The notes under the pieces are model-generated. The model saw nothing but the letters and a program-made list of their open reading frames with translations, did not search any database and was not told where the DNA came from. A stretch of 64,000 bases of DNA from the NCBI RefSeq assembly GCF_018531375.1, contig NZ_JAHBOH010000002.1:558001-622000 (forward strand), given 5' to 3'. Origin of the DNA: Cellulomonas fulva (GTDB lineage Bacteria; Actinomycetota; Actinomycetes; Actinomycetales; Cellulomonadaceae). Below are positions 4,961 through 60,488 of this stretch, one piece after another. The position numbers were made by a program, and so were the translations under genes. The first letter of the stretch is position 1. Each line of letters begins with the position of its first letter.

Positions 4961-4968
4961 GCGCGGGC

Positions 4969-4993
4969 GGGGCCGCGCGCGCCGCGCGGCCCC
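4969..4993. terminator. Bidirectional terminator hairpin
   Basis: A perfect 11-bp stem (4969-4979 with 4983-4993) closes a 3-base loop between two convergent genes. It lacks a T-run, as is usual in such GC-rich genomes. Confidence 0.6.
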
Positions 4994-4994
4994 G

Positions 4995-5522
4995 TCAGTT
5001 GTCGGGCACCTCCGGTGCCGGGCCGCCTGACGGCAGGGTGGCCTCGAGAGCCGCGAAGAGCTGGACGCCCGTGCCCAGGCCGCACGCGAGGATCTGCTCG
5101 AGCTGGGCGTCCGTGGCGCCCGGCTCGAAGTCGGCGGACACCTCGCTGTACAGCGCGAGCATGCCCTCCTCCTCGCGCACGTAGGCCTTGGGCCAGATGC
5201 GCTCGCGGTTCCAGTCGTTGAGCGCCAGACCGACGGCCGCGCGCTGCTCGAGCGGGAGCTGGCGGTGCCAGCGCCCGCGGATCTGGACGATCTCCGCGTG
5301 GTCACCGAGCAGCAGGAACCAGAACCGGCTGCCGTCCCAGGTGCCCGTGAGGTCGCCGTCCTCGTCGACCACGAACCGGTAGCCCTTGGTCAGCAGGTAG
5401 TCCCCGACGCGGTCGCGCGTGACGGGTGTGGGCTCCTGGGTGTCGGCCGGCGGGCGCTTGGTCGGCTTCGGGAGACCGCCGAGCACGCGCTGGAGCCAGC
5501 TCTGGCGGTTCTGCCCGCTCAC
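4995..5522 (-). CDS. YbjN domain protein (copy 2 of 3)
   Basis: A 175-residue cytoplasmic protein of the YbjN family (type III secretion chaperone-like fold). Family signatures are visible in order: GYRFVVDEDGDLTGTW, FWFLLLGDHAEIVQIRGRW, LNDWNRERIWPKAYV, then an acidic LYSEVSADFEPGATDAQLEQIL. The start is GTG at 5522, overlapping the stop of the upstream paralogue by four bases (GTGA), so the two are translationally coupled. YbjN proteins are linked to stress and motility phenotypes in enterobacteria; the function in actinobacteria is not established. Two paralogues lie beside it. Confidence 0.85.
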   Translation of the reverse strand: MSGQNRQSWLQRVLGGLPKPTKRPPADTQEPTPVTRDRVGDYLLTKGYRFVVDEDGDLTGTWDGSRFWFLLLGDHAEIVQIRGRWHRQLPLEQRAAVGLALNDWNRERIWPKAYVREEEGMLALYSEVSADFEPGATDAQLEQILACGLGTGVQLFAALEATLPSGGPAPEVPDN

Positions 5523-45633: not shown

Positions 45634-46058
45634 GCGCCATCGCTGCACGGGCTCACGCCGCACTGCCCGCACCCGGCCGTCCGTCCCGCGCGACGGCGCC
45701 GTCACCGTCACCGTCCCCGTCGCGGCTGCGGGTGGTCCGGGCCCCCGCGCACGCGCGCACCCGGGTCCCGTTCGTCCTCGTCTGCATGGCGGTGCTCGCT
45801 GGTGCGCTGCTGTCCGCGCTGCTGCTCAACACGCAGATGGCGTCGAACGCGTACGAGCGGTACGACCTGTCGAACGAGCTCGGCCGCCTCGACCAGGACG
45901 CGAAGGACCTGGTCGCGCAGCTGGACCAGAAGTCGTCGCCGGCGGAGCTCGCGAGGTCCGCGGGCGAGCTCGGCATGGTGCCCTCGGAGGGCACCGGCTG
46001 GATCCGCCTGTCCGACGGCAAGGTGCAGGGCGCGCCCGCCGCCTCCGACGGTCGATGA
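45630..46058 (+). CDS. ftsL: FtsL-like division protein
   Basis: A 142-residue bitopic protein at the ftsL position. A Pro/Ser/Arg-rich cytoplasmic part leads to one membrane helix ([22 protein letters not shown], about residues 46-67) and an external coiled-coil ([42 protein letters not shown]). This layout is that of FtsL/DivIC proteins, which link FtsQ to the FtsWI synthase. Sequence identity in the family is low, so the name rests on layout and position. It overlaps both neighbours by four bases. Confidence 0.85.
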
Positions 46059-47998
46059 CGGATCTCGTCGACCCGCCGCGCGTCCGTCCGGGCAGACACG
46101 GGTCGCCGGGGCACAGTGGGTCCGTGACCACGACGACCCCGCGACCCGCGCGCGAGCCGCGCGTCGTCGAGGGTGCGCCCAGCGACCCGAAGCACCGCCC
46201 CTCCCGGGGCGGGCCGACCTCGCCGGCCGGTCCGCCCCGGGGCGGGTGGCGCGGTCCGCGCACGGCGCGCGCGGGGGAGCGCCGGCGCATGCTCTTCCTC
46301 ACGGTCGCCCTGGTCGTGGTGCTCGCGCTGTTCGCCGGCCGGCTCGTGTACGTGCAGGTCGTGCGCGGTCCGTCGGTCGCGCAGGAGGCGCGCGAGAAGC
46401 GCCTGACGAGCTACAGCCTCATCGGGACCCGCGGTCAGATCACCGACCGGGACGGCGTCGCGCTGGCCACGTCGGTCGAGCGCTACGACGTCTCGGTGAA
46501 CCAGCTGCTCGTCGGCTCCTACCGGGGCGACGGCACGGAGGCGGACCCGGACGGTGCGCTGGGCGTCGCGAAGCGGCTCGCCCCTCTGCTGGACGAGGAC
46601 GTCGCCGAGCTCGGCGGGCGCCTGGTCGGCGAGCGGCAGTTCGTCTACCTCCTCAAGGGCGTGCTGCCCGAGGTCGCGCGCGAGATCTTCGCGCTCCGGC
46701 TGCCCGGGATCAACGTCGACAAGGCCGCGGCCCGCACCTACCCGAACGGCAACCTCGCGGGCAACGTCATCGGGTACACGAACTCGAACGGCCAGGGGCT
46801 CGCGGGACTCGAGGCGTCGCTGGACGACCAGCTCAAGGGCACGCCGGGCGTCGAGACCTACGAGCGCGGGGCCAAGGGCCAGGCCGTCCCGGGCGGGCTC
46901 TCGGAGGGCACACCCGCGCGCACGGGTGACTCGGTGCGGCTGACGCTCGACGCCGACATCCAGTGGAAGGCCCAGAGCCTGCTCGACGCCCAGGTCGCCG
47001 CAACCAAGTCCGACGGCGGCACCGTCGTGGTGACGAACGTGCGCACGGGCGAGATCCTCGCGCTCGCCGACTCGGGCTCGACCGACCCGAACAACCCGGG
47101 CGACGCCGAGGAGGGCTCGCTGGCCGCGTCGGTGTCGAACGTCTTCGAGCCGGGCTCCACGGGCAAGGTCATCACGATGGCCGCGGTCATCGAGGAGGGG
47201 CTCGTCGGGCCGACGGACCGGTGGACGGTGCCGTACGTGTTCACGACCGACAACGGCCAGCAGATCCACGACTCCCACGAGCACGGCACGCTGCACCTGA
47301 CCACGACGGGCGTGCTCGCCGAGTCCTCCAACACCGGCACGGTGCAGGTGGGCGCAGGCCTCTCGGAGGAGAAGCGCTACCAGTGGCTCACCCGGTTCGG
47401 CTTCGGCTCGACCACCGGGGTCGAGCTGCCGGGGGAGTCGCGCGGCATCCTGCACGACTGGGAGGACTGGGACGGCCGCACCAAGTGGAACGTCCTGTTC
47501 GGCCAGGGCGTCGCGGTGACCGCGCTGCAGGCCACGCAGGTGTTCGCGACGATCGCGAACGACGGCGTGCGCGTCGAGCCGCACGTCATCGCGGGCTGGA
47601 CGGACCCCGACGGCGAGTACACCGAGGCGGACCCCGCCCCGCGCACGCGCATCGTCTCGCAGGAGACCGCGGACACCGTCCTGTCGATGATGGAGAGCGT
47701 GGTCGACGACGGCACGGGCGCCAACGCGTCGATCCCCGGCTACCGCGTGGCCGGCAAGACGGGCACCGCGCAGAACTGGCTCCACGGCAAGCAGGGCATC
47801 ACGGCGTCGTTCATCGGCGTCGTGCCCGCGGACGACCCGCAGATCGCGGTCAGCGTGTTCCTGCACGAGCCGAAGACCTCGATCTACGGCGGCACCGTGG
47901 CCGCGCCCGTGTTCAAGGAGGTGGCCGCCTACACGCTCAGCGAGCTCGGCGTCGCTCCCTCGGGCACCAAGCCGACGCTCTTCCCGACCGAGTGGTGA
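46055..47998 (+). CDS. ftsI: Division transpeptidase FtsI (PBP3-type)
   Basis: FtsI cross-links peptidoglycan at the septum with FtsW. The 647-residue class B penicillin-binding protein has a 70-residue basic cytoplasmic tail, one membrane helix (RMLFLTVALVVVLALFAGRLVYV), a pedestal domain (GTRGQITDRDGVALATS) and the transpeptidase domain with Ser368-x-x-Lys371 (GSTGK), SSN (ESSNTGTV) and KTG (AGKTGTAQ). There is no PASTA domain, unlike many actinobacterial PBPs. ATG 46055 overlaps ftsL. Confidence 0.96.
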   Translation: MTDLVDPPRVRPGRHGSPGHSGSVTTTTPRPAREPRVVEGAPSDPKHRPSRGGPTSPAGPPRGGWRGPRTARAGERRRMLFLTVALVVVLALFAGRLVYVQVVRGPSVAQEAREKRLTSYSLIGTRGQITDRDGVALATSVERYDVSVNQLLVGSYRGDGTEADPDGALGVAKRLAPLLDEDVAELGGRLVGERQFVYLLKGVLPEVAREIFALRLPGINVDKAAARTYPNGNLAGNVIGYTNSNGQGLAGLEASLDDQLKGTPGVETYERGAKGQAVPGGLSEGTPARTGDSVRLTLDADIQWKAQSLLDAQVAATKSDGGTVVVTNVRTGEILALADSGSTDPNNPGDAEEGSLAASVSNVFEPGSTGKVITMAAVIEEGLVGPTDRWTVPYVFTTDNGQQIHDSHEHGTLHLTTTGVLAESSNTGTVQVGAGLSEEKRYQWLTRFGFGSTTGVELPGESRGILHDWEDWDGRTKWNVLFGQGVAVTALQATQVFATIANDGVRVEPHVIAGWTDPDGEYTEADPAPRTRIVSQETADTVLSMMESVVDDGTGANASIPGYRVAGKTGTAQNWLHGKQGITASFIGVVPADDPQIAVSVFLHEPKTSIYGGTVAAPVFKEVAAYTLSELGVAPSGTKPTLFPTEW

Positions 47999-48125
47999 AC
48001 CGGAGGTCGCTGGACGAGTCGGGCACCGCGCGGGTCGGCGGAGGTGCGGCTGTGACGATCGTCGCACCGGGCCCCGACGGCGCTGACGGCGCGCCGCACG
48101 GACGGGCGCGGGGTGCCCTGGGCGG

Positions 48126-48131
48126 TAGATT
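48126..48131 (+). promoter_or_regulatory. -10 box TAGATT of murE (internal promoter)
   Basis: TAGATT ends seven bases before ATG 48139, with no Shine-Dalgarno in the gap. The 140-base ftsI-murE gap thus seems to hold a leaderless promoter inside the cluster. Confidence 0.5.
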
Positions 48132-48138
48132 CCTCCCC

Positions 48139-49806
48139 ATGACCTCGACGGCCCGGATGCGACCCGCGCGTCCCGCCGACTGTCGGCTCAGCGACCTGGT
48201 CGACGTGTTCTCCCTGGTCAGCGTGGGCGTCGACCCCGCGAGCACCGTGGTGCAGGGCGTCAGCGTCGCCTCCGACGACGTGCTGCCGGGCGAGCTGTTC
48301 GTCGCCGTCCCCGGTGCGCGCACGCACGGGGCGGCGCACGCGCGGGCGGCCGTCGAGGCCGGCGCCGTGGCCGTGGTGACCGACGCGGCGGGCCGCGACG
48401 TCCTGGGCGACCTGGCCGGGCGCGTGCCGGTGCTGCTCACGGACGAGCCCCGGGCGGTCGCCGGCCTCCTCGCCGCGCACGTGCTGGACCACCCGGCACG
48501 GCGCCTGCGCACGGTGGGCGTGACCGGCACCAACGGCAAGACCACCACCACGTACTTCGTCGACGCCGCGCTGCGGGCCGCGCACGCGACCACCGCGGTG
48601 CTCGGCACGGTCGAGCTCCGGATCGGCGCGGACGCGATCGAGTCCCCGCGGACCACCGTGGAGGCACCGGTGCTCCAGAACGTGCTGGCGCTGGCGCTGG
48701 AGCGCGGCGCGACGGCCGTCGCGATGGAGGTCTCCTCGCACGCGCTGGCGCTGCACCGCGTCGCGGGCACCGTGTTCGACGTCGTCGGCTTCACCAACCT
48801 GCAGCGCGACCACCTCGACTTCCACGGGGACATGGAGGGCTACTTCCGGGACAAGGCGCGCCTGTTCGCTCCGGGCCAGGCGCGTCGCGGGGTCGTGGTG
48901 GTCGACGACGAGTGGGGCCGCCGGCTCGCCGCGCAGGCCCAGATCCCGGTGGAGTCGGTCGCCACGCACGTCGACGACCCGGCCGCGGCGGACGCCGACT
49001 GGGCGGTCGTCACGGCGGACGTGGGCCTGGACGGGGTCGGCTCCTCCTTCACGCTGCGCGGTCCCGACGGACGCGAGCACGTCGCCTCGAGCCCCCTGCC
49101 CGGGCTCGTCAACGTCTCCAACGCGGCGCTGGCGATCGTGCTGGCCCACGCGGCCGGGGTGGCGCTGGACGTCGCGATCGCCGCGGTCGGCACCGCCCAC
49201 GCGATCCCCGGCCGGATGGAGCGCGTGATCGAGCGTGCCCCCGGCCGGCCGCTGGGGATCGTCGACTACGCCCACACGCCCGACGCGCTGGTCCTGGCGC
49301 TCGGGGCCGTGCGGCCCATCACGCCCGGCCGGCTCGTGATCGTGCTCGGCTCGGACGGGGACCGCGACCGCGGCAAGCGCCCGATCATGGGGCAGATCGC
49401 CGCGCGGCTGGCCGACGTGGTCGTCGTCACCGACGAGAACCCGCGCTCGGAGGAGCCGAGCAGCATCCGCGCCGCCATCCTGGACGGCGTGCGGGAGGTC
49501 CGGCCCGGCCTGACCGACGTCCACGAGGTCGAGCCGCGCGCCCAGGCGGTGCGGCACGGCGTCGCCCTGGCGGGCGAGGGGGACACCGTCATCGTGACGG
49601 GCAAGGGCCACGAACCGACTCAGGAGATCGCCGGAGTGTTCCACCGGTACAACGACCGTGACGTGCTGCTGGCCGCGCAGGCCGAGGGGCTCGCCGACGC
49701 AGCGCCCGCCGACGCAGCGCCCGACAGGCTCCCCGGCCGACTGCCCGACCCGACGCCCGACGGCGCGGGGCGGGCGTCGCGCCCGGGTGACGGGGGCGAC
49801 GAGTGA
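48139..49806 (+). CDS. murE: UDP-MurNAc-tripeptide ligase MurE
   Basis: MurE adds the third amino acid to UDP-MurNAc-L-Ala-D-Glu. The 555-residue protein has the ATP loop GVTGTNGKTTTTYF (from about residue 127), the EVSSHALALHRVAGTVFDVVGFTNLQRDHLDFHG block, LPGLVNVSNAALAIVLAH, and GIVDYAHTPDALVLAL. The motif that reads the amino acid is DENPR (residues 432-436), close to but not identical with DNPR of meso-DAP enzymes. The C-terminal tail has a 15-bp duplication (ADAAP, 49694-49726). It overlaps murF by four bases. Confidence 0.95.
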   Translation: MTSTARMRPARPADCRLSDLVDVFSLVSVGVDPASTVVQGVSVASDDVLPGELFVAVPGARTHGAAHARAAVEAGAVAVVTDAAGRDVLGDLAGRVPVLLTDEPRAVAGLLAAHVLDHPARRLRTVGVTGTNGKTTTTYFVDAALRAAHATTAVLGTVELRIGADAIESPRTTVEAPVLQNVLALALERGATAVAMEVSSHALALHRVAGTVFDVVGFTNLQRDHLDFHGDMEGYFRDKARLFAPGQARRGVVVVDDEWGRRLAAQAQIPVESVATHVDDPAAADADWAVVTADVGLDGVGSSFTLRGPDGREHVASSPLPGLVNVSNAALAIVLAHAAGVALDVAIAAVGTAHAIPGRMERVIERAPGRPLGIVDYAHTPDALVLALGAVRPITPGRLVIVLGSDGDRDRGKRPIMGQIAARLADVVVVTDENPRSEEPSSIRAAILDGVREVRPGLTDVHEVEPRAQAVRHGVALAGEGDTVIVTGKGHEPTQEIAGVFHRYNDRDVLLAAQAEGLADAAPADAAPDRLPGRLPDPTPDGAGRASRPGDGGDE

Positions 49807-51284
49807 TCGCGCTGTCCGCCACCGAGATCGCGGAGGCCACGGGCGGGGCGCTGCACGGCGTCGCCGCGCACGCGCTCGTCGCGGGCGCCGTGGTGACCGA
49901 CTCGCGCGACGTCGAGCCCGGCGGGCTGTTCGTCGCGCTCCCGGGCGAGCACGTCGACGGGCACGACTTCGCCGCGACCGCCGTCGCGGCCGGTGCGGCC
50001 GCGGTGCTCGCCGCGCGCCCGCTCGTCGGACCGGACGGTGCGGCGCTGCCGTGCGTCGTCGTGCCGGACGTCGAGGTCGCCCTCGGCGAGCTCGCCCGCG
50101 AGGTGCTGGCCCGGCTGCGGCTCGCCGCGGTCGCGCCCGGGGGCAGCGGCCTGCGCGTCGTCGGCGTGACGGGCTCGGTCGGCAAGACCACGACGAAGGA
50201 CCTGCTCGCGCAGCTCTGCGGCGCGGTCGGCCCGACGATCGCCCCCGTGCGGTCCTTCAACAACGAGATCGGCCTGCCGCTCACGGTGCTGCGCGCGGAC
50301 GAGTCCACGCGGTTCCTCGTGCTCGAGATGGGCGCGTCCGGCCCGGGTCACCTCACCTACCTCACCCGCATCGCGCCGCCGGACGTGGCGGTGGTGCTCG
50401 TCGTCGGCCAGGCGCACCTCGGCGGGTTCGGCGGCGGCATCGACGCGGTGGCGACCGCGAAGTCCGAGATCGTCCAGGGCCTGCTGCCCGACGGCGTCGC
50501 GGTGCTCAACGCCGACGACCAGCGCGTGATCGCGATGGCCGCGCTCGCCCCGGGTGACGTGGTCACGTTCGGCGCGGCGCGCGGCGCCGGCGTGCGCGCG
50601 ACCGACGTCGAGCTCGACCGGGCCGGTCGTGCCCGGTTCACGCTGCTGGTCGGCGAGGGCACGGCCGACGAGGCCTCCGCCCGGGTGGAGCTGCGGCTCG
50701 TCGGCGAGCACCACGTGCACAACGCGCTCGCGGCCGCCGCGGCGGCGCTCGCGGTGGGCCTCACGCTCGACGAGGTCGCGACCGGCCTGACGGGCGCGGA
50801 CGCGCTGTCGCCGCACCGGATGCACGTCGTCGACCGTCCCGACGGCGTCACGGTGGTCGACGACTCCTACAACGCCAACCCCGACTCGATGCGCGCCGCG
50901 CTCAAGGCCCTCGCGGTCCTCGCGGGCCGCGACCGCCGCTCGATCGCCGTGCTGGGCGAGATGCTCGAGCTCGGCGAGGGCTCGCGCGAGGCGCACGACG
51001 CGATCGGCCGGCTCGTCGTGCGGCTGAACGTCGGCCTCACCGTCGTGGTCGGCGAGGGCGCGCGCGCGATCCGCGACGGCGCGAACCACGAGGGCAGCTG
51101 GGGCGACGAGGTCGTGCTCGCGGACGACGTCGACGCGGCGGCCGCCTTCCTCGCCGAGGAGCTGCGCGCGGGCGACGTCGTGCTCGTGAAGTCGTCGTAC
51201 GGCTCCGGCCTGTGGCGGCTGGGCGACCTGCTGACCGACGCCCCCGGGGCGCCGGCCGCCGACGGCGGGGTGACCGCTCCGTGA
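49803..51284 (+). CDS. murF: UDP-MurNAc-tripeptide-D-Ala-D-Ala ligase MurF
   Basis: MurF adds D-Ala-D-Ala to the tripeptide precursor. The 493-residue protein has [28 protein letters not shown] loop [44 protein letters not shown] and [20 protein letters not shown] with [21 protein letters not shown] 49803 lies in the murE stop, and the murF stop overlaps the GTG of mraY. Confidence 0.96.
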
Positions 51285-52369
51285 AGGCCGTCCTGATCTC
51301 CGGCGGCGTGGCGATGCTCGTCGCGCTGCTGGGCACGCCGCTGTTCATCCGCTACCTGGTCCGCAAGCAGTACGGCCAGTTCGTCCGCCAGGACGGCCCG
51401 ACCGCGCACTTCACCAAGCGCGGCACGCCGACCATGGGCGGCGTCGTGATCCTCGCCGCCACGCTCCTCGGCTGGGCGGCGGCGCTCCTGCTCACGGGCA
51501 CCACGCCGTCGGTCTCCGCGGTGCTGGTGCTGTTCCTCATGACCGGCCTGGGGCTCGTCGGCTTCCTCGACGACTTCATCAAGATCAGCCGGCAACGCAG
51601 CCTGGGCCTCAAGGCGCGCTGGAAGATCGTGGGGCAGGGCCTGGTCGGCGTGGTGTTCGCGGTGGCGGCGCTGCAGTTCCCGAACGCGCAGTTCCGGACG
51701 CCGGCCTCCACGAACATCTCCTTCATCCGCGACACCAACCTGGACCTCGCGTTCGCGGGCGCGACGGTCGGCCTGATCCTGTTCGTGATCTGGGCCAACT
51801 TCCTCATCACCGCGTGGTCGAACGCGGTGAACCTGACCGACGGCCTGGACGGGCTCGCGACCGGCGTCTCGCTCATCGTCTTCGGCGCGTACGTCGTCGT
51901 GTGCGTGTGGCAGTTCAACCAGTCCTGCCAGATCCTGTCCTCGGCGGGTCCGCGCTGCTACGAGACGCGCGACCCGCTCGCGCTGGCCGTGGTCGCCGCG
52001 GCGATCACCGGCGCGTGCTTCGGCTTCCTGTGGTGGAACGCCAGCCCCGCCAAGATCTTCATGGGCGACACGGGCTCGCTCGCGCTCGGTGGCGCGCTCG
52101 CGGGGCTCTCCATCCTGACCCGGACCGAGATCCTCGCGGCCATCATCGGCGGCCTGTTCGTGCTCGAGGTGCTGTCCGACGTCATCCAGATCGGCTTCTT
52201 CAAGCTGACCCGCAGACGCGTGTTCCGGATGGCGCCGCTGCACCACCACTTCGAGCTCGGCGACAACCGCTGGGGCGAGGTGACGATCGTGATCCGGTTC
52301 TGGATCATCGCGGGGCTGTTCGTCGCGCTGGGGGTGGGCGTCTTCTACGCCGAGTGGGTGGCCGGCTAG
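51281..52369 (+). CDS. mraY: Phospho-MurNAc-pentapeptide translocase MraY
   Basis: MraY joins phospho-MurNAc-pentapeptide to undecaprenyl phosphate to give lipid I. The 362-residue polytopic protein has about ten helices. Conserved polar blocks are [71 protein letters not shown] and [16 protein letters not shown], including the catalytic Asp residues and the His-rich loop. GTG 51281 overlaps murF; the stop TAG is followed at once by the murD GTG. Confidence 0.97.
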
Positions 52370-53851
52370 GTGGCCGGGACGGATCCGACGAGGCCGCTCG
52401 ACCTGGACGGAGCGCGCGTCGTCGTCGCCGGGATGGGCGTGTCCGGGCGCGCGGCGCTCGAGGTGCTCGCCGCGCGCGGCGCGCGGGTCGTGCCCGTCGA
52501 CGACGCCTCCGACGAGGGCGTGCACTCGGCCGAGTACCTCGCTGCCGACGGCCTCGCGCGGGCGGACCTCGTCGTCGCGTCGCCCGGGCTCGCGCCGCAC
52601 CACCCGCTGCTCGCCGCCGCCGCGGAGCGGTGGCTGCCGCTGTGGAGCGAGGTCGAGCTGGCGTGGCGCGTGCGCGTCGCGGGGCCGGCGGGCGAGCCCG
52701 CGCCCTGGCTCGCGCTGACCGGGACCAACGGCAAGACCACCACGGTCGGCATGCTCGAGTCGGTGCTCACCGCCGCCGGGCGCGTGACGGCCGCGGTGGG
52801 CAACGTGGGGACGCCGATCGTGCTGGCGGCCACCGACCCCACGCTCGAGGTGCTGGCGGTCGAGCTCTCGAGCTTCCAGCTGCACCTCACGCACTCGATG
52901 TCGGCGCAGGCGGCCGCCGTGCTCAACGTCGCACCCGACCACCTCGACTGGCACGGCTCGCTCGACGCGTACGCCGCGGCCAAGGCCCGCATCTACGAGC
53001 GCGCCCAGCGCGCCTGCGTGTACAACGTCGCGGACCCGCGCACCGAGCAGATGGTGCGCGACGCGGACGTGGTCGACGGCGCCGTCGCGGTGGGCTTCAC
53101 CACCGGCACGCCCGGGGTCGGGCAGGTCGGGCTGGTCGAGGACGTGCTCGTCGACCGCGGCTTCTCGCGGCTGCGGCACACCCACGCCGCTGAGCTCGGC
53201 ACGCTCGAGGACCTCTCCGCGCTCGCCGGGCCGGACGGGACCGTGCCGCGGCACGTCGTCGCGGACGCGCTCGCGGCCGCCGCGCTCGCGCTCGCGCACG
53301 GCGTCGACCCGGCGCACGTGCGCGACGGCCTGCGGGCGTACGGACCCGGTCGGCACCGCATCGAGACGGTCGCGCGCGTCGACGGCGTCGCGTACGTCGA
53401 CGACTCCAAGGCCACCAACGCGCACGCCGCGGCCGCGTCGCTCGGGTCGTTCGAGCCGGGCTCGGTGGTGTGGGTCGCGGGCGGGCTCGCGAAGGGCGCG
53501 CGGTTCGACGAGCTCGTCGTGGGCCGGCGGGACCGCCTGCGCGGCGTCGTCCTCATCGGCGCGGACCGCGAGCCGCTGCGCGACGCGCTCGCCCGACACG
53601 CCCCGGATGTCCCCGTCGTCGAGATCGAGCCCGGTGAGACTGAGGACGTGATGACCTCGGCTGTCGCTGCCGCGCGCGCGCTCGCGCTCGACGCCGGCGC
53701 GCGCCCGGGCCCCGTGACCGTCCTGCTGGCGCCGGCGTGCGCCTCGATGGACCAGTTCGCGTCCTACGCGGCGCGCGGCGACGCGTTCGTCGCCGCCGTG
53801 GGCCGGCTCCCGGGTGCTCGCGCGGGAGGCGATCCGGGCGGTCCCGCGTGA
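52370..53851 (+). CDS. murD: UDP-MurNAc-L-alanine:D-glutamate ligase MurD
   Basis: MurD adds D-glutamate to UDP-MurNAc-L-Ala. The 493-residue protein has the N-terminal Rossmann part (VVVAGMGVSGRAALEVLAARGARVVPVDD), ATP loop LTGTNGKTTTVGMLESVL, VELSSFQLHLTHSM, VAPDHLDWHGSLDAYAAAKARI, GPGRHRIETVARVDGVAYVDDSKATNAHAAAASL and VWVAGGLAKGARFDELV. GTG 52370 abuts the mraY stop with no gap. Confidence 0.96.
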   Translation: MAGTDPTRPLDLDGARVVVAGMGVSGRAALEVLAARGARVVPVDDASDEGVHSAEYLAADGLARADLVVASPGLAPHHPLLAAAAERWLPLWSEVELAWRVRVAGPAGEPAPWLALTGTNGKTTTVGMLESVLTAAGRVTAAVGNVGTPIVLAATDPTLEVLAVELSSFQLHLTHSMSAQAAAVLNVAPDHLDWHGSLDAYAAAKARIYERAQRACVYNVADPRTEQMVRDADVVDGAVAVGFTTGTPGVGQVGLVEDVLVDRGFSRLRHTHAAELGTLEDLSALAGPDGTVPRHVVADALAAAALALAHGVDPAHVRDGLRAYGPGRHRIETVARVDGVAYVDDSKATNAHAAAASLGSFEPGSVVWVAGGLAKGARFDELVVGRRDRLRGVVLIGADREPLRDALARHAPDVPVVEIEPGETEDVMTSAVAAARALALDAGARPGPVTVLLAPACASMDQFASYAARGDAFVAAVGRLPGARAGGDPGGPA

Positions 53852-53873
53852 CGGCCGGCCGGGAGGTCCGACG

Positions 53874-55181
53874 ATGACGGCGCTGGACCCCGCGGCGGGG
53901 GGAGCGGCCGAGGACCGGCACGGGCGCCGGTCGGTGCTGGGCCAGTGGAACAGCGTGGTGACGAGCTACTACGTGCTGGTCGGCGCCACCGCGCTGCTGC
54001 TCGTCGTCGGGCTGGTCATGGTGCTCTCCAGCTCGAGCGTGGAGTCGCTCGACGAGAGCGGGAACGCGTACGCGGTCTTCCTCGACCAGGCGAAGTTCGC
54101 CCTCATCGGCGTCCCCGTGGCGATCGGGCTGGCGCGCCTGCCGGTGCGGTTCTTCAAGGCGATCGCCTGGCCGGTCCTCGGCGCCGCGGTCGTCTTCCAG
54201 TCGCTCATCTTCGTCGGCCTCGGCTGCGGCGCGGGCGGCAACACCAACTGGGTCTGCCTGCCGGGCGGCATCACCGCCCAGCCGTCGGAGACGATCAAGC
54301 TCGCCCTCGCCCTGTGGCTCGCCGTGGTGCTCGCCCGCAAGCAGCCCTACCTCGAGCAGTGGAAGCACGTGTTCGTCCCCGCCGTGCCGGTCGCCGGGCT
54401 CGCAATCGGGGCGGTGCTGCTCGGGCACGACCTCGGCACGGCGATGGTGCTGTTCGTGCTCGTCGCGGGGGCGATGTTCGTCGCCGGGGTGCCGCTGCGC
54501 ATGTTCGCGGTCGCGGGGATGCTGGCGGCCGGGGCGGTCGCCGTCCTGGTGGTGCTCAGCCCCAACCGCATCGGGCGCATCACCTCCTGGCTCGGCGGCG
54601 ACGAGTGCTCCACGTCCGCGGCCTGCTACCAGACGCTCCACGGCAGCTGGGGCCTGGCCAGCGGCGGGATCGGCGGCCTCGGCCTAGGGCAGAGCCGCGA
54701 GAAGTGGTCCTACCTGCCGGCGGCCCACAACGACTTCATCTTCGCGATCCTGGGCGAGGAGCTCGGGCTCGTCGGGACGCTCGTCGTCCTGGGCCTGTTC
54801 GGCCTGCTCGCCTTCGCGATGATCCGGGTGATCCGGCGGCACCCGGACCCGTTCGTCAAGATCGCGACCGGCGGGATCCTGGCCTGGATCGCGGGCCAGG
54901 CGCTGGTCAACATCGCGGTCGTCATCGGCCTCGCGCCCGTCATCGGCGTGCCGCTGCCGCTCGTGTCCGCGGGCGGCTCCGCGCTCATCATGACGCTCGC
55001 GGCGCTGGGCGTGGTGATCGCGTTCGCCCGCGACGAGCCGGGCGCCGCCGAGGCGCTCGCGGCCCGGCCCGGCGTGGTGCGCCGCTCGCTCGCCGTCGTC
55101 GGCGTGAGCCGGGTCGCGCGGCCCTCGTCGGCCCGCGGCTCGTCGAGGACCCCATCGACCCGAGGGAGCACGCGTGGCTGA
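53874..55181 (+). CDS. ftsW: SEDS peptidoglycan glycosyltransferase FtsW
   Basis: FtsW polymerises glycan strands at the septum together with FtsI. The 435-residue protein has ten membrane helices. SEDS motifs are visible: VLSSSSVESLDESGNAYAVFLDQAKFA, NWVCLPGGITAQPSETIKLALALW, GHDLGTAMVLFVLVAGAMFVAG, LASGGIGGLGLGQSREKWSYLPAAHNDFIFAILGEELG and PLVSAGGSALIMTLAALG. ATG 53874 has the Shine-Dalgarno gggagg; the open frame from 53814 lies inside murD. It overlaps the next gene by eight bases. Confidence 0.96.
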   Translation: MTALDPAAGGAAEDRHGRRSVLGQWNSVVTSYYVLVGATALLLVVGLVMVLSSSSVESLDESGNAYAVFLDQAKFALIGVPVAIGLARLPVRFFKAIAWPVLGAAVVFQSLIFVGLGCGAGGNTNWVCLPGGITAQPSETIKLALALWLAVVLARKQPYLEQWKHVFVPAVPVAGLAIGAVLLGHDLGTAMVLFVLVAGAMFVAGVPLRMFAVAGMLAAGAVAVLVVLSPNRIGRITSWLGGDECSTSAACYQTLHGSWGLASGGIGGLGLGQSREKWSYLPAAHNDFIFAILGEELGLVGTLVVLGLFGLLAFAMIRVIRRHPDPFVKIATGGILAWIAGQALVNIAVVIGLAPVIGVPLPLVSAGGSALIMTLAALGVVIAFARDEPGAAEALAARPGVVRRSLAVVGVSRVARPSSARGSSRTPSTRGSTRG

Positions 55182-57840
55182 CGGCTCGACACCGGCGGAG
55201 GTGTCGGTCCTGCTGGCCGGCGGCGGGACGGCAGGGCACGTCAACCCGCTGCTCGCGGTCGCCGACGAGATCGTGCGCCGCCACCCCGCGGCGCAGGTCA
55301 CGGTGCTGGGCACGGCCGAGGGGCTCGAGGCCCGGCTCGTCCCGGCCCACGGCTACCCGCTCGCGATCGTCCCGCGCGTGCCGCTGCCGCGACGACCCTC
55401 GCTCGACCTGCTGCGGCTCCCGGGCCGGCTCCGTGCCGCCGTGGCCGCGGCGGGACGCGCGATCGACGAGTCCGGCGCGCAGGTCGTGGTGGGATTCGGT
55501 GGCTACGTCGCCACGCCCGCGTACCTGGCCGCGCGGCGGCGCGGCGTGCCGATCGTCGTGCACGAGCAGAACGCCCGGCCCGGGCTGGCGAACCGGCTGG
55601 GGGCGCGGTGGGCGCAGGCGGTGGCCGTGACCTTCCCCGGCACGGAGCTGCGCGGGGCGCGGGTGACCGGCCTGCCCCTGCGTCGCCCGGTGGCGGACCT
55701 GGTCGCGGCGCGCGCGGTGGACGCCGCGGCCGCGCGGCGCGCCGCTGCCGCGGAGCTCGGGCTCGACCCGGACCTGCCGACGCTCGTGGTGACGGGCGGG
55801 TCGCTGGGCGCCGCGAGCGTGAACGCCGCCGTCGCGGGGGCGGCGGGCGAGCTGCTGGGCGCCGGCGTCCAGGTGCTGCACCTCACGGGCCGGGACAAGT
55901 CCGCGCCCGTGCACGCCGTGCTCGGAGAGCTGGGTCTGCCCGAGCAGGTCATCGAGCGGTACCACGTGCGCGAGTACCTCGACGACATGCACCTCGCGCT
56001 CGCGTGCGCCGACCTGGTCGTGGGCCGGGCCGGTGCAGGCACGGTGTGCGAGGTGGCCGCGCTCGGCCTGCCGGCCGTCTACGTGCCGCTCCCGGTGGGC
56101 AACGGCGAGCAGCGGCGCAACGCCGCGGGCGTGGTCGCCGCCGGCGGGGCGCTGCTGGTCGACGACGCCGCGCTGGACCCCGCGTGGGTGGTCCGGCACG
56201 TCGTGCCGCTGCTGGTCGGCAGCCGCGCGGCCGACGAGCGGGCGCGGATGGGCGCGGCGGCCGCGGGTGCGGGGTTCCCCGACGCCTCCGGCCGGGTCGC
56301 GGACCTGGTCGACGCGCTGCGCCCGGCCGGCGGACCGACGCGTGCTGACGCGGCGGCACCGGCCGCGGCGGCACGGTCCGTCGGCGCATCGGTCGGCGCG
56401 TCGGTCGGCACGTCGGTCGCCACGGCCGGGGACCAGCTCGTGGTGGCCGACCTGGGCCGCGTGCACCTCGTCGGGGTGGGCGGGGCCGGCATGTCCGCGA
56501 TCGCGCTGCTGCTGGCGGCGCGCGGGCTGCGCGTGTCCGGCTCCGACGCGGCCGACGGGCCCGCGCTGCCGGCCCTGCGCGCCGCGGGCGTCGCCGTGAC
56601 CGTCGGCCACGACGCCGCGCTGGTCACCGGCGTCGACACGCTCGTCGTCTCCTCCGCCGTGCGGGAGAGCAACCCGGAGCTGAGCGCCGCGCGCGCGGCC
56701 GGCACCCGCGTGCTGCACCGCAGCGAGGCGCTCGCCGCGCTCATGGCGGACCGGGACGCGGTCGCGGTCGCTGGCGCGCACGGGAAGACGACCACGTCCG
56801 CGATGGTTGCGACGGCGCTGGCCGCCGCGGGCGCGGACCCGTCGTTCGCCATCGGCGGGACCGTCCTGACGGCCGACGGTGCGCTCGGTGGCGCACGCGA
56901 CGGCTCCGGCGCCGCGTTCGTCGCGGAGGCCGACGAGTCCGACGGCTCGTTCCTCGCCTACCGCCCGCTGGTCGCCCTCGTCACGAACGTGGAGCCGGAC
57001 CACCTGGACCACTACGGGTCGCGCGAGGCCTTCGAGGGGGCGTTCGTCGCGTTCGCCGAGCGGGTGCGCGACGGCGGGACGCTCGTGGCGTGCGCCGACG
57101 ACGAGGGCGCCCGAGCGCTGGTCGCGCGTGTGCGGACCGACCTCGCCGACCGCGGCGTCGCGGTGGTCACCTACGGCCGCGCCGAGGACGCCGACGTCCG
57201 CGTCGGCGAGCTGGCCCGGACCGCCGCGGGCTGGACCTTCGAGGTCGGGTCCGGCGACGCCGCCGCGACCATCACGCTGTCGATGCCGGGCGAGCACGTG
57301 GCCCTGAACGCCGCCGGGGCCTGGGCCGCCTGTGCCGCGCTCGGTGTGGCCGGGACCGCCGCCGCCGCGGGGCTGGCGCAGTTCCGGGGGACGGGCCGGC
57401 GCTTCGAGGACCGGGGCACCGCGGGCGGCGTGCGCGTGGTCGACGACTACGCGCACCACCCGACCGAGGTCACGGCGCTGCTCCGGGCCGCCCGCTCGGT
57501 GGCGGGCGAGGGGCGCGTCCTCGTGCTCTTCCAGCCGCACCTGTACTCGCGCACGCGGACCTTCGCCGCCGAGTTCGGCGCCGCGCTGGACCTGGCCGAC
57601 GTCGTCGTCGTGACCGACGTCTACGCCGCGCGCGAGGACCCCGACCCGACCGTCTCCGGCGCGACCGTGGTCGAGCAGGTCCCGACGAGCGGACGCGCGA
57701 CGTACGTGGCCGACCGGCACGAGGCGGCGCTCGCGGTCGCCGCCGCCGCGCGCCCCGGTGACCTGCTGCTGACGGTCGGCGCGGGCGACGTCACGCTGCT
57801 GGCCGACGTGGTGCTCGCGGCGCTCGGCGGCCGGCCGTGA
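55174..57840 (+). CDS. murG-murC: MurG-MurC fusion protein (lipid II synthase + UDP-MurNAc-L-Ala ligase)
   Basis: One uninterrupted frame of 888 residues joins two enzymes normally separate. Residues 1-380 are MurG, which adds GlcNAc to lipid I: VLLAGGGTAGHVNPLLAVAD, VVGFGGYVATPAYLAA, VHEQNARPGLANRLGA, VTGGSLGAASVN and VGRAGAGTVCEVAALGLPAVYVPLP. Residues 430-888 are MurC, which starts the stem peptide: VHLVGVGGAGMSAIALL, AGAHGKTTTSAMVATAL (near 534), NVEPDHLDHYGSREAFEGAF and VVDDYAHHPTEVTALL. The linker is Ala-rich with three 12-bp repeats (VGAS, 56380-56415). GTG 55174 has the Shine-Dalgarno gaggga. An internal start before VVADLGRVHLVG could also release free MurC; a missed stop or frameshift in assembly is the other alternative. 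Confidence 0.9.
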   Translation: MADGSTPAEVSVLLAGGGTAGHVNPLLAVADEIVRRHPAAQVTVLGTAEGLEARLVPAHGYPLAIVPRVPLPRRPSLDLLRLPGRLRAAVAAAGRAIDESGAQVVVGFGGYVATPAYLAARRRGVPIVVHEQNARPGLANRLGARWAQAVAVTFPGTELRGARVTGLPLRRPVADLVAARAVDAAAARRAAAAELGLDPDLPTLVVTGGSLGAASVNAAVAGAAGELLGAGVQVLHLTGRDKSAPVHAVLGELGLPEQVIERYHVREYLDDMHLALACADLVVGRAGAGTVCEVAALGLPAVYVPLPVGNGEQRRNAAGVVAAGGALLVDDAALDPAWVVRHVVPLLVGSRAADERARMGAAAAGAGFPDASGRVADLVDALRPAGGPTRADAAAPAAAARSVGASVGASVGTSVATAGDQLVVADLGRVHLVGVGGAGMSAIALLLAARGLRVSGSDAADGPALPALRAAGVAVTVGHDAALVTGVDTLVVSSAVRESNPELSAARAAGTRVLHRSEALAALMADRDAVAVAGAHGKTTTSAMVATALAAAGADPSFAIGGTVLTADGALGGARDGSGAAFVAEADESDGSFLAYRPLVALVTNVEPDHLDHYGSREAFEGAFVAFAERVRDGGTLVACADDEGARALVARVRTDLADRGVAVVTYGRAEDADVRVGELARTAAGWTFEVGSGDAAATITLSMPGEHVALNAAGAWAACAALGVAGTAAAAGLAQFRGTGRRFEDRGTAGGVRVVDDYAHHPTEVTALLRAARSVAGEGRVLVLFQPHLYSRTRTFAAEFGAALDLADVVVVTDVYAAREDPDPTVSGATVVEQVPTSGRATYVADRHEAALAVAAAARPGDLLLTVGAGDVTLLADVVLAALGGRP
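56380..56415 (+). repeat. Three 12-bp tandem repeats in the MurG-MurC linker
   Basis: GTCGGCGCATCG, GTCGGCGCGTCG and GTCGGCACGTCG follow one another in frame and code VGAS-VGAS-VGTS. Confidence 0.9.
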
Positions 57841-58877
57841 GCCCGACGCGCCCGCCCCGCCCGCCGGGCACCCGGTCGGCATCCGGCCCGTCACCCCGCT
57901 CGGTGCCCGCCGGTGCGTCCGCGCCGCGCCGGCCGAACGGATCGGGCGCGTCGGGCACCCGGTCGCCCGCGGTCGCCTCGCCACCTCCGGCGCCGCCGCG
58001 GACGGCGTCCTCGGCCCCGCGCGCCGACGTGCCGACGCCCTCGCAGCGCACGGACGTCCCGCCGCCGCCGCGCCAGGTCGTCGGCCCGGGCACCGCGCCG
58101 ACGGCTGCCGTCGGGGTCGCGATCCGTACGCCGCCCGTCGTCTCGCCGACGTCCGCCGCCCGGTTCGCCGAGCGTGCGCGCCTGCGCCGCTCGATCGCCC
58201 GCCGCCAGGTCGTCTCGCTCGCGGTCGCGGCGGCCGTGGCGATCGGGCTGGTGTACCTGCTGTTCTTCTCGCCCGTCCTCGCGCTGCACGCCGCCACCGT
58301 CGAGGTGCGCGGGGCGGGCACGGTGGTCGCGGTCGACCAGGTGCGCGCGGTCGTCGACGAGCTCGGCGGCACGCCGCTGCCACGGCTCGACACGGGCGGC
58401 CTGCAGGCCGACGTGCTCGACGTGCCCGGCGTGCGTGAGGCGACCGTGACGCGGAGCTGGCCGCACGGCCTGACGGTGACGCTCGTCTCGCGCGAGCCCG
58501 TCGCGGCCGTGCCCGCGCAGGGGCGCGCCGGGTACTCGCTGCTGGACCAGGACGGCGTCCAGGTGGGGCACGTCGGCAAGGCGCCGGCCGCGCTGCCGGT
58601 GGTGGACGTCCCGGTCGGCGACAAGCGCACGCTCCGGGCGGTGCTCTCGGTCATCGAGCAGCTCCCAGCCGAGCTGCTGGCGGACGTCGGCTCGGTCTCC
58701 GCGCGGACCCAGGACACGGTCTCGATGCAACTGCGCGGTGCCGCGCGGGTCGACTGGGGGAGCGCGGCGGAGACGCCACTCAAGGTCGCGGTGCTGACGA
58801 CGCTGCTGGCCACGAACGCGGGCAAGAAGGCGGACGTGATCGACGTCTCCGCGCCGCGCATGCCGATCACCCAGTGA
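57837..58877 (+). CDS. ftsQ: Division protein FtsQ
   Basis: FtsQ holds FtsL/FtsB-type partners at the septum. The 346-residue protein has an unusually long Pro/Ser/Arg-rich cytoplasmic region of about 120 residues, one membrane helix (VVSLAVAAAVAIGLVYLLFF), then the POTRA domain (LALHAATVEVRGAGTVVAVDQVRAVVDELGGTPLPRLDTGGL) and the FtsQ domain (VPGVREATVTRSWPHGLTVTLVSREPVAAV, DWGSAAETPLKVAVLTTLLAT). GTG 57837 overlaps the stop of murG-murC. Its stop codon lies in the first of three 11-bp repeats. Confidence 0.94.
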   Translation: MSPTRPPRPPGTRSASGPSPRSVPAGASAPRRPNGSGASGTRSPAVASPPPAPPRTASSAPRADVPTPSQRTDVPPPPRQVVGPGTAPTAAVGVAIRTPPVVSPTSAARFAERARLRRSIARRQVVSLAVAAAVAIGLVYLLFFSPVLALHAATVEVRGAGTVVAVDQVRAVVDELGGTPLPRLDTGGLQADVLDVPGVREATVTRSWPHGLTVTLVSREPVAAVPAQGRAGYSLLDQDGVQVGHVGKAPAALPVVDVPVGDKRTLRAVLSVIEQLPAELLADVGSVSARTQDTVSMQLRGAARVDWGSAAETPLKVAVLTTLLATNAGKKADVIDVSAPRMPITQ

Positions 58878-58903
58878 GCGGCCAGTGAGTGGCCAGTGAG
58901 CGG
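58871..58903 (+). repeat. Three 11-bp tandem repeats over the ftsQ stop codon
   Basis: CCAGTGAGCGG at 58871 and 58893 and CCAGTGAGTGG at 58882. The end of ftsQ, including TGA, is copied twice downstream. Confidence 0.9.
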
Positions 58904-59003
58904 TGCGGGTGCGTGAGCCCGGTCGCCGAGGGCCGCGCCGGGTGGTTCGACGCACGCGGGAGACGGCCGGCCGAACCCGTGACGCGACACGCGCGCGCGG
59001 TCG

Positions 59004-59032
59004 TTGATCGGCGCCGGGGCGCGACCTAGCGT
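59004..59032 (+). promoter_or_regulatory. ftsZ promoter P1 (TTGATC-17 bp-TAGCGT)
   Basis: -35 TTGATC at 59004-59009, -10 TAGCGT at 59027-59032, 17-bp spacer. It would give ftsZ a leader of about 125 bases containing the inverted repeat 59065-59081. Confidence 0.65.
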
Positions 59033-59038
59033 CACGCC

Positions 59039-59066
59039 GTGACAGGACATCTGACATAACTATAAC
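59039..59066 (+). promoter_or_regulatory. ftsZ promoter P2 (GTGACA-16 bp-TATAAC)
   Basis: -35 GTGACA at 59039-59044 and -10 TATAAC at 59061-59066, spacer 16 bp, in the most A/T-rich patch of the 288-base gap 58878-59165. Confidence 0.5.
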
Positions 59067-59081
59067 CCTCAAGTAGAGGGT
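59065..59081. promoter_or_regulatory. Inverted repeat ACCCTC-N5-GAGGGT at the ftsZ promoter
   Basis: A perfect 6-bp inverted repeat around AAGTA directly downstream of, and overlapping, the P2 -10 box. The shape (CTC-N5-GAG halves) fits a dimeric, perhaps MerR-type, regulator. Corynebacterium controls ftsZ with the MerR-type FtsR; equivalence is a guess. Confidence 0.55.
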
Positions 59082-59165
59082 GAAGGTTGCTCCGCACGCC
59101 GCGTGTCGCGAATGCAGGCAGCCCACCACAGCAGCACCAGCCGCACTGAACGAGAGGCACCCACC

Positions 59166-60488
59166 GTGGCAGCTCCGCAGAACTATCTGGCGGTCATCAA
59201 GGTCGTCGGCATCGGCGGTGGCGGCGTCAACGCCGTGAACCGCATGATCGAGGTCGGCCTCAAGGGTGTCGAGTTCATCGCCGTCAACACCGACGCCCAG
59301 GCCCTGCTCATGTCCGACGCCGACGTCAAGCTCGACGTCGGCCGCGAGCTCACGCGCGGCCTCGGCGCGGGCGCGGACCCCGAGGTCGGCAAGAAGGCGG
59401 CCGAGGACCATGCCGAGGAGATCGAGGACGTCCTGCGCGGCGCGGACATGGTCTTCGTCACGGCGGGCGAGGGCGGCGGCACCGGCACGGGCGGTGCGCC
59501 GGTCGTGGCCCGGATCGCGCGGTCGCTCGGTGCGCTCACGATCGGTGTCGTGACCCGTCCGTTCACCTTCGAGGGCCGGCGCCGCTCGGTCCAGGCGGAC
59601 GCCGGCATCGACGCCCTGCGGGCCGAGGTCGACACGCTCATCGTCATCCCGAACGACCGCCTGCTGCAGATCTCCGACCGCTCGGTCTCGGTGCTCGACG
59701 CCTTCCACTCCGCGGACCAGGTGCTGCTCTCCGGTGTCCAGGGCATCACGGACCTGATCACGACGCCGGGGCTCATCAACCTCGACTTCGCGGACGTGAA
59801 GTCGGTCATGCAGGGTGCCGGGTCCGCGCTCATGGGCATCGGCTACGCGCGCGGCGACGACCGCGCGGTGCAGGCCGCGGAGATGGCGATCAGCTCGCCG
59901 CTGCTCGAGGCCAGCATCGACGGCGCGCACGGCGTGCTGCTGTCCATCCAGGGTGGTTCCGACCTCGGCCTGTTCGAGATCAACGAGGCCGCGCGTCTGG
60001 TGCAGGAGGCCGCGCACCCGGAGGCCAACATCATCTTCGGTGCGGTCATCGACGACGCGCTGGGCGACGAGGTCCGGGTGACCGTGATCGCGGCCGGGTT
60101 CGACGGCGGGTCGCCGCAGGTGCGTCGTGACGCCCGGGCGCTCGGCCAGGTCAGCGGTCAGCAGGGCGGTCAGGGGGCCGGCCAGGCGGCGCAGGGCGCG
60201 CACACGACCGGCCACGGCCCGGGTCAGGTGCGTCAGGTGCCGTCCGTCCCCGCGCCGCGCACGGACGCCCCGCAGGAGGTGCCCGCCTTCGCGGCGGCCG
60301 ACCGCCCGGTCGCCGTCCCCGGTGGTCAGCCGCTCCCGACCTCGTCGCCCCAGGAGGTGCCGGCGTTCCTCTCCACGGAGGCCGAGCCCGCACCGTCGAC
60401 CACGTCGCTCGAGGTGCCGCGGATCTTCTCGGAGGACGAGCCGCGGCGCGAGCGCGACGACCTCGACGTCCCCGACTTCCTCAAGTGA
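59166..60488 (+). CDS. ftsZ: Division GTPase FtsZ
   Basis: FtsZ builds the cytokinetic ring. The 440-residue protein has the nucleotide-binding part ([54 protein letters not shown], the tubulin signature [19 protein letters not shown]), the T7 loop [23 protein letters not shown], and a disordered linker with a C-terminal tail ending in DLDVPDFLK, the SepF-binding peptide. GTG 59166 has the Shine-Dalgarno gagagg; the frame is open to GTG 59103 but the extra 21 residues are not family-like. Two promoters precede it, and pgeF overlaps its stop. Confidence 0.98.

Follow-up and report, generated by a model that had tools for sequence, protein, structure and literature searches.

MurG, the lipid II glycosyltransferase, and MurC, the UDP-MurNAc:L-alanine ligase, are read as one protein in Cellulomonas fulva, and the same two genes are joined in much of the genus. 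The gene lies in the dcw cluster of the window, by which we mean the whole stretch of 64,000 nucleotides that was analysed. We consider it very probable that this bifunctional MurG-MurC protein is a genuine, dcw-encoded product of the Cellulomonas group, of the same kind as the fusion of 'C. gilvus', and that it originated through an insertion or deletion (indel) at a gene overlap. The gene and its two enzyme parts are as follows.

55174-57840, plus strand: murG-murC fusion gene, 888 codons, GTG start and TGA stop, from the open reading frame and its domains; the joined frame is likewise present in 47 further genomes of the genus.
55174-56319, plus strand: MurG part, lipid II glycosyltransferase, residues 1 to about 382, from Pfam, NCBIfam and motifs.
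56455-57840, plus strand: MurC part, UDP-MurNAc:L-alanine ligase, residues about 428-888, from Pfam, NCBIfam, motifs and a PDB match.

The frame at 55174-57840 contains no internal stop over its 888 codons, with MurG at about residues 10-378, a linker at about 384-427 and MurC at about 428-884. Both enzymes share this single stop-free frame, and no second MurG or MurC was found elsewhere in the genome, the fusion being present in single copy. The earlier note had read MurG and MurC as one 888-residue protein, a reading that the open frame, the Pfam and NCBIfam domains and the joined frame in relatives all bear out. In the MurG part the motifs GGGTAGH, HEQN, GGSLG, GAGTVCE and EQRRNA are all present, and Pfam places Glyco_transf_28 (PF03033) at residues 12-151 with 114 bits and Glyco_tran_28_C (PF04101) at 203-370 with 112 bits. 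The NCBIfam model TIGR01133 (murG) scores 247.3 bits over residues 10-378 (profile 6-352 of 353), 3 bits under its cut-off of 250.25; it is the top-scoring glycosyltransferase model for these residues and the gene occupies the murG position of the cluster. Judged from Pfam and synteny, there is little doubt about the MurG identity. The MurC part carries all of GAHGKTT, DESDGSF, NVEPDHLD, GRRFE, DDYAHHP and FQPHLYSRT, together with the Pfam domains Mur_ligase (430-526), Mur_ligase_M (532-719) and Mur_ligase_C (742-871). TIGR01082 (murC) matches residues 430-880 with 451.7 bits, above its cut-off of 335.1, and the PDB entry 7bva matches with an E value of 1.9e-110. Both halves would be expected to be active. 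The predicted polypeptide would presumably remain uncleaved; alternatively, it may be cleaved after translation.

The cluster reads ftsL, ftsI, murE, murF, mraY, murD, ftsW, murG-murC, ftsQ and ftsZ, followed by sepF-like and divIVA-like genes. The gene names are taken from the translated open reading frames, and those from ftsI to ftsZ served as anchors in a survey of junctions described below. The two direct neighbours of the fusion gene both overlap it.

53814-55181, plus strand: ftsW, overlapping the murG start by 8 nt, from the list of open reading frames and as an anchor gene.
57837-58877, plus strand: ftsQ, overlapping the murC stop by 4 nt (GTGA), from the list of open reading frames and the junction survey.

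More generally, the dcw genes (46055-60488 in the window; L163-L202) are mostly chained by 4-nt xTGA overlaps, and ftsW/murG usually overlaps in another frame, by 8 nt here. Six loci (L139, L140, L142, L146, L149 and L153) have open frames of 1355-1504 codons, which raised the question of a triple fusion with FtsW or FtsQ; this was rejected, as neither FtsW nor FtsQ is encoded in the joined frame.

The linker is repetitive, and a sequencing or assembly error might have missed a stop or frameshift between two ordinary genes. The joined frame, however, recurs with differing linkers in 47 further genomes of the genus that were assembled independently, which refutes the artefact reading for the genus and makes it exceedingly improbable for this locus. 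Of 82 Cellulomonas genomes, 9 were left unjudged because matches were missing or because the locus ran into an N-run or the end of a contig. The other 73 divide into 48 fused and 25 separate, so that about two in three carry the fusion. In a sister genus of the same family three loci are fused (L157-L159) and three are not (L160-L162). Buchananella hordeovulneris (L034), from another family, is also fused at 3025-5490, with a linker of 17 codons that contains no in-frame start codon, and this fusion is apparently independent in origin. Because one frame is seen in 48 of 73 resolvable genus genomes, in three loci of the sister genus and in B. hordeovulneris, the fusion is not a sequencing error. 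None of the other surveyed loci outside Cellulomonas, apart from that of Buchananella, was fused; phyla outside the Actinomycetota are represented through those surveyed loci and are all separate. Among the best matches listed for 395 other genomes sampled from the rest of the phylum, no joined match was free of stops. N-runs at the linker or over murC can mimic a split or absent gene. The apparent lack of MurC in one genome (G027, L155) reflects an N-run over murC and not gene loss, and an apparent split within a fused clade (L154) reflects an N-run at the linker, so this locus was excluded from the tree.

The separate genes point to how the fusion may have arisen. In 37 of 38 unfused loci murG and murC overlap by 4 nt, the stop codon of the one and the start codon of the other sharing the sequence ATGA or GTGA. 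These are 24 of 25 genus genomes with separate genes and all 13 loci taken from other records, among them one duplicate of a genus genome. The one exception among unfused genus genomes (L118, G001) has a murG ending in CTGA and a murC beginning with ATG in another frame. At the overlap murC lies in the -1 frame, whereas in fused genomes the frame difference is zero, so that the fusing step amounts to an indel of net +1 (mod 3). A small one would suffice, since for most genus genomes with separate genes the MurC frame extends without a stop for 14 to 387 codons back into murG. A tree of MurG plus MurC with 92 rows, which is made from the two proteins themselves and is not a species tree, contains 15 all-fused clades, Buchananella included, and requires at least 10 changes of state, 8 of them forced by well-supported branches. 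On this tree the trait has changed at least 8-10 times. Most of these changes would be gains, since nearly all unfused relatives share the exact overlap that a re-split must recreate. We propose that in the ancestor murG and murC were separate and translationally coupled through the xTGA overlap, and that a net +1 (mod 3) indel there removed the murG stop and brought MurG into the MurC frame. In-frame repeat growth would then have altered the tether while the ribosome-binding signal of murC decayed. The result would be a 1:1 product, with MurC held where MurG sits, at the inner face of the membrane. A 1:1 ratio had also been suggested in the earlier note and is supported here: as no stop codon closes the murG part, translation of MurG entails translation of MurC, barring ribosome drop-off.

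Between the two enzymes lies a linker that the earlier note had described as built from repeats, and two repeat units were indeed found.

56323-56454, plus strand: linker, residues about 384-427, rich in Ala, Pro, Val and Ser and predicted to be disordered, from pLDDT, unconserved columns and in-frame repeats.
56349-56386, plus strand: 15-nt repeat unit, 2.5 copies, within the linker region.
56369-56424, plus strand: 12-nt tandem repeat, 4.6 copies, encoding an SVGA/SVGT-like part of the linker.

Across the fused genomes the linkers are unconserved, of low complexity and rich in Ala and Pro, and range from 17 to 143 codons; 'fused' is defined by the shared frame, so their being multiples of three is no independent test. 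Stops occur in the two other frames of only 12 and 17 of 47 fused linkers, and because GC-rich DNA seldom has stops in other frames, little can be concluded from an open frame in the linker by itself. The linkers do retain coding composition, with a G+C of 0.90/0.67/0.93 at codon positions 1/2/3. AlphaFold (38 fused sequences) returned two confident enzyme folds with a mean pLDDT of 89.5, and a pLDDT below 50 for linker residues 386-417. The pTM was 0.58, and the model therefore gives no fixed placement of either enzyme relative to the other. In the predicted product each enzyme folds on its own, and a flexible, disordered tether connects the two. One fused clade (L139, L140, L142, L145, L146, L148 and L149) has linkers of about 100-137 residues with Ala/Glu/Arg repeats (e.g. 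AAERAEAERAAAERAAAQEAERAERAEQDRLAAERAEAERAA), which look like a single charged helix and not a floppy tether.

The earlier note had also raised the possibility of an internal start near 56440, from which a separate MurC could be made. The window contains a sole plausible candidate.

56440-56445, plus strand: GTG GTG, possible internal start for a separate MurC, with a weak upstream match.

The Shine-Dalgarno match of the GTG at 56440/56443 is -5.7 kcal/mol, a value equalled or beaten by 17% of ordinary in-gene start-like codons; murC starts in separate genomes have a median of -8.2 kcal/mol. For the top-scoring in-frame start codon of each fused linker the median is -5.2, and since 0.25 of null draws from ordinary in-gene start-like codons are as low, these signals do not stand out from background. 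If the codon adjoining the MurC core is set aside, ATG, GTG and TTG are absent in frame from the linkers of nine fused loci, and four loci lack them altogether. The suggestion therefore stands in part: this genome may have a weak internal start at 56440/56443, and a conserved one in the linker is not supported, given the background-like signals and the loci that lack an in-frame start codon. To judge from these scores, the ribosome-binding signal of murC is gone in fused genomes. No promoter or terminator was found within the gene, the promoter search covering the sigma-70 type.

What the fusion does is a separate question. The pathway runs in the order MurC, MurD, MurE, MurF, MraY, MurG. The earlier note had proposed that the fusion could channel the pathway, and proximity alone would favour a direct passage of substrate from one active site to the other. 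This is unlikely because the two steps are not consecutive, with MurD, MurE, MurF and MraY acting in between (also PMC6420597), and the structure model gives the enzymes no fixed relative placement; we regard channelling as highly improbable. The consequence would instead be co-localisation.

Tethering with a benefit and neutral tolerance are then the live explanations, both compatible with the origin proposed above. An indel at the overlap may simply join frames in stop-poor, GC-rich DNA and be tolerated without benefit. The unconserved, low-complexity linkers of widely varying length are consistent with this, as are the common and closely related unfused genomes and the MurC frame already open upstream in most of them, and we give this possibility very nearly an even chance. 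The junction survey, covering nine dcw junctions from ftsI to ftsZ in 41 genus genomes, speaks against it. The murG/murC junction is fused in 30 of 41 and every other junction in 0 of 41, even though the same xTGA overlap is found at murE/murF (40/41), murF/mraY (41/41) and murC/ftsQ (37/41). With at least 5 changes in this subset, the chance that all fall at one of four equal junctions is about 0.004, a result that indicates specificity and not benefit, because junctions may differ in tolerance, for example through membrane topology. Alternatively, the tether may have been selected: MurG, a proposed scaffold of the Mur enzymes at the membrane, would recruit MurC, the first ligase, to the vicinity of MraY and MurG and fix the ratio of the joined enzymes. 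The recurrence and junction specificity of the fusion argue for this, MurG oligomerises and binds MurE-MurF in Bordetella (PMC6420597), and the same group regards the occurrence of MurG/MurC fusions as an argument that a complex exists (PMC4929429). Set against it are the third of the genus that lacks the fusion and the unconserved linker, and we would place selected tethering somewhat short of an even chance. More tentative still, and on balance doubtful, is the proposal that selection has favoured fusion again and again where murG meets murC, making this boundary a hotspot; at least 8 separate joins or splits of the two essential enzymes in Cellulomonas and kin, the loss of the MurC start and an advantage in holding MurC on a membrane-bound MurG scaffold would then go together.

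Within the genus, close relatives have either the fused or the separate state and have switched between the two repeatedly, which amounts to a natural experiment. It bears on a long-standing question of peptidoglycan synthesis and Mur inhibitor design, namely whether the cytoplasmic Mur ligases work as a complex on MurG at the membrane. The point most worth further attention is the repeated fusion at the murG/murC junction alone.

Fusions of murG and murC were reported by Laddomada, Miyachiro and Dessen in 2016, with the actinomycete 'C. gilvus' in their Figure 3 (PMC4929429), and the fusion described here is therefore known in kind. The 'C. gilvus' case involves the same two genes in the same order and cluster, apparently in the same genus if C. 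is read as Cellulomonas; the window comes from a different genome. In the part of that article available to us, the account of 'C. gilvus' gives no analysis of distribution, origin, linker or start site. The present analysis adds the origin by overlap indel, the at least 8-10 changes of the trait, the junction specificity, the loss of the murC start signal and the distribution across the genus. Laddomada et al. (2019) also mention murG/murC fusions and point out that the steps are non-consecutive (PMC6420597). MurE-MurF of Bordetella pertussis likewise unites two neighbouring dcw Mur enzymes in one polypeptide (PMC6420597), but MurE and MurF catalyse consecutive steps whereas the lipid II pathway has MurC at one end and MurG at the other. 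In MurB/MurC of Verrucomicrobium spinosum and MurC/Ddl of Chlamydia, MurC is similarly joined to a peptidoglycan enzyme, with other partners (PMC4803751).
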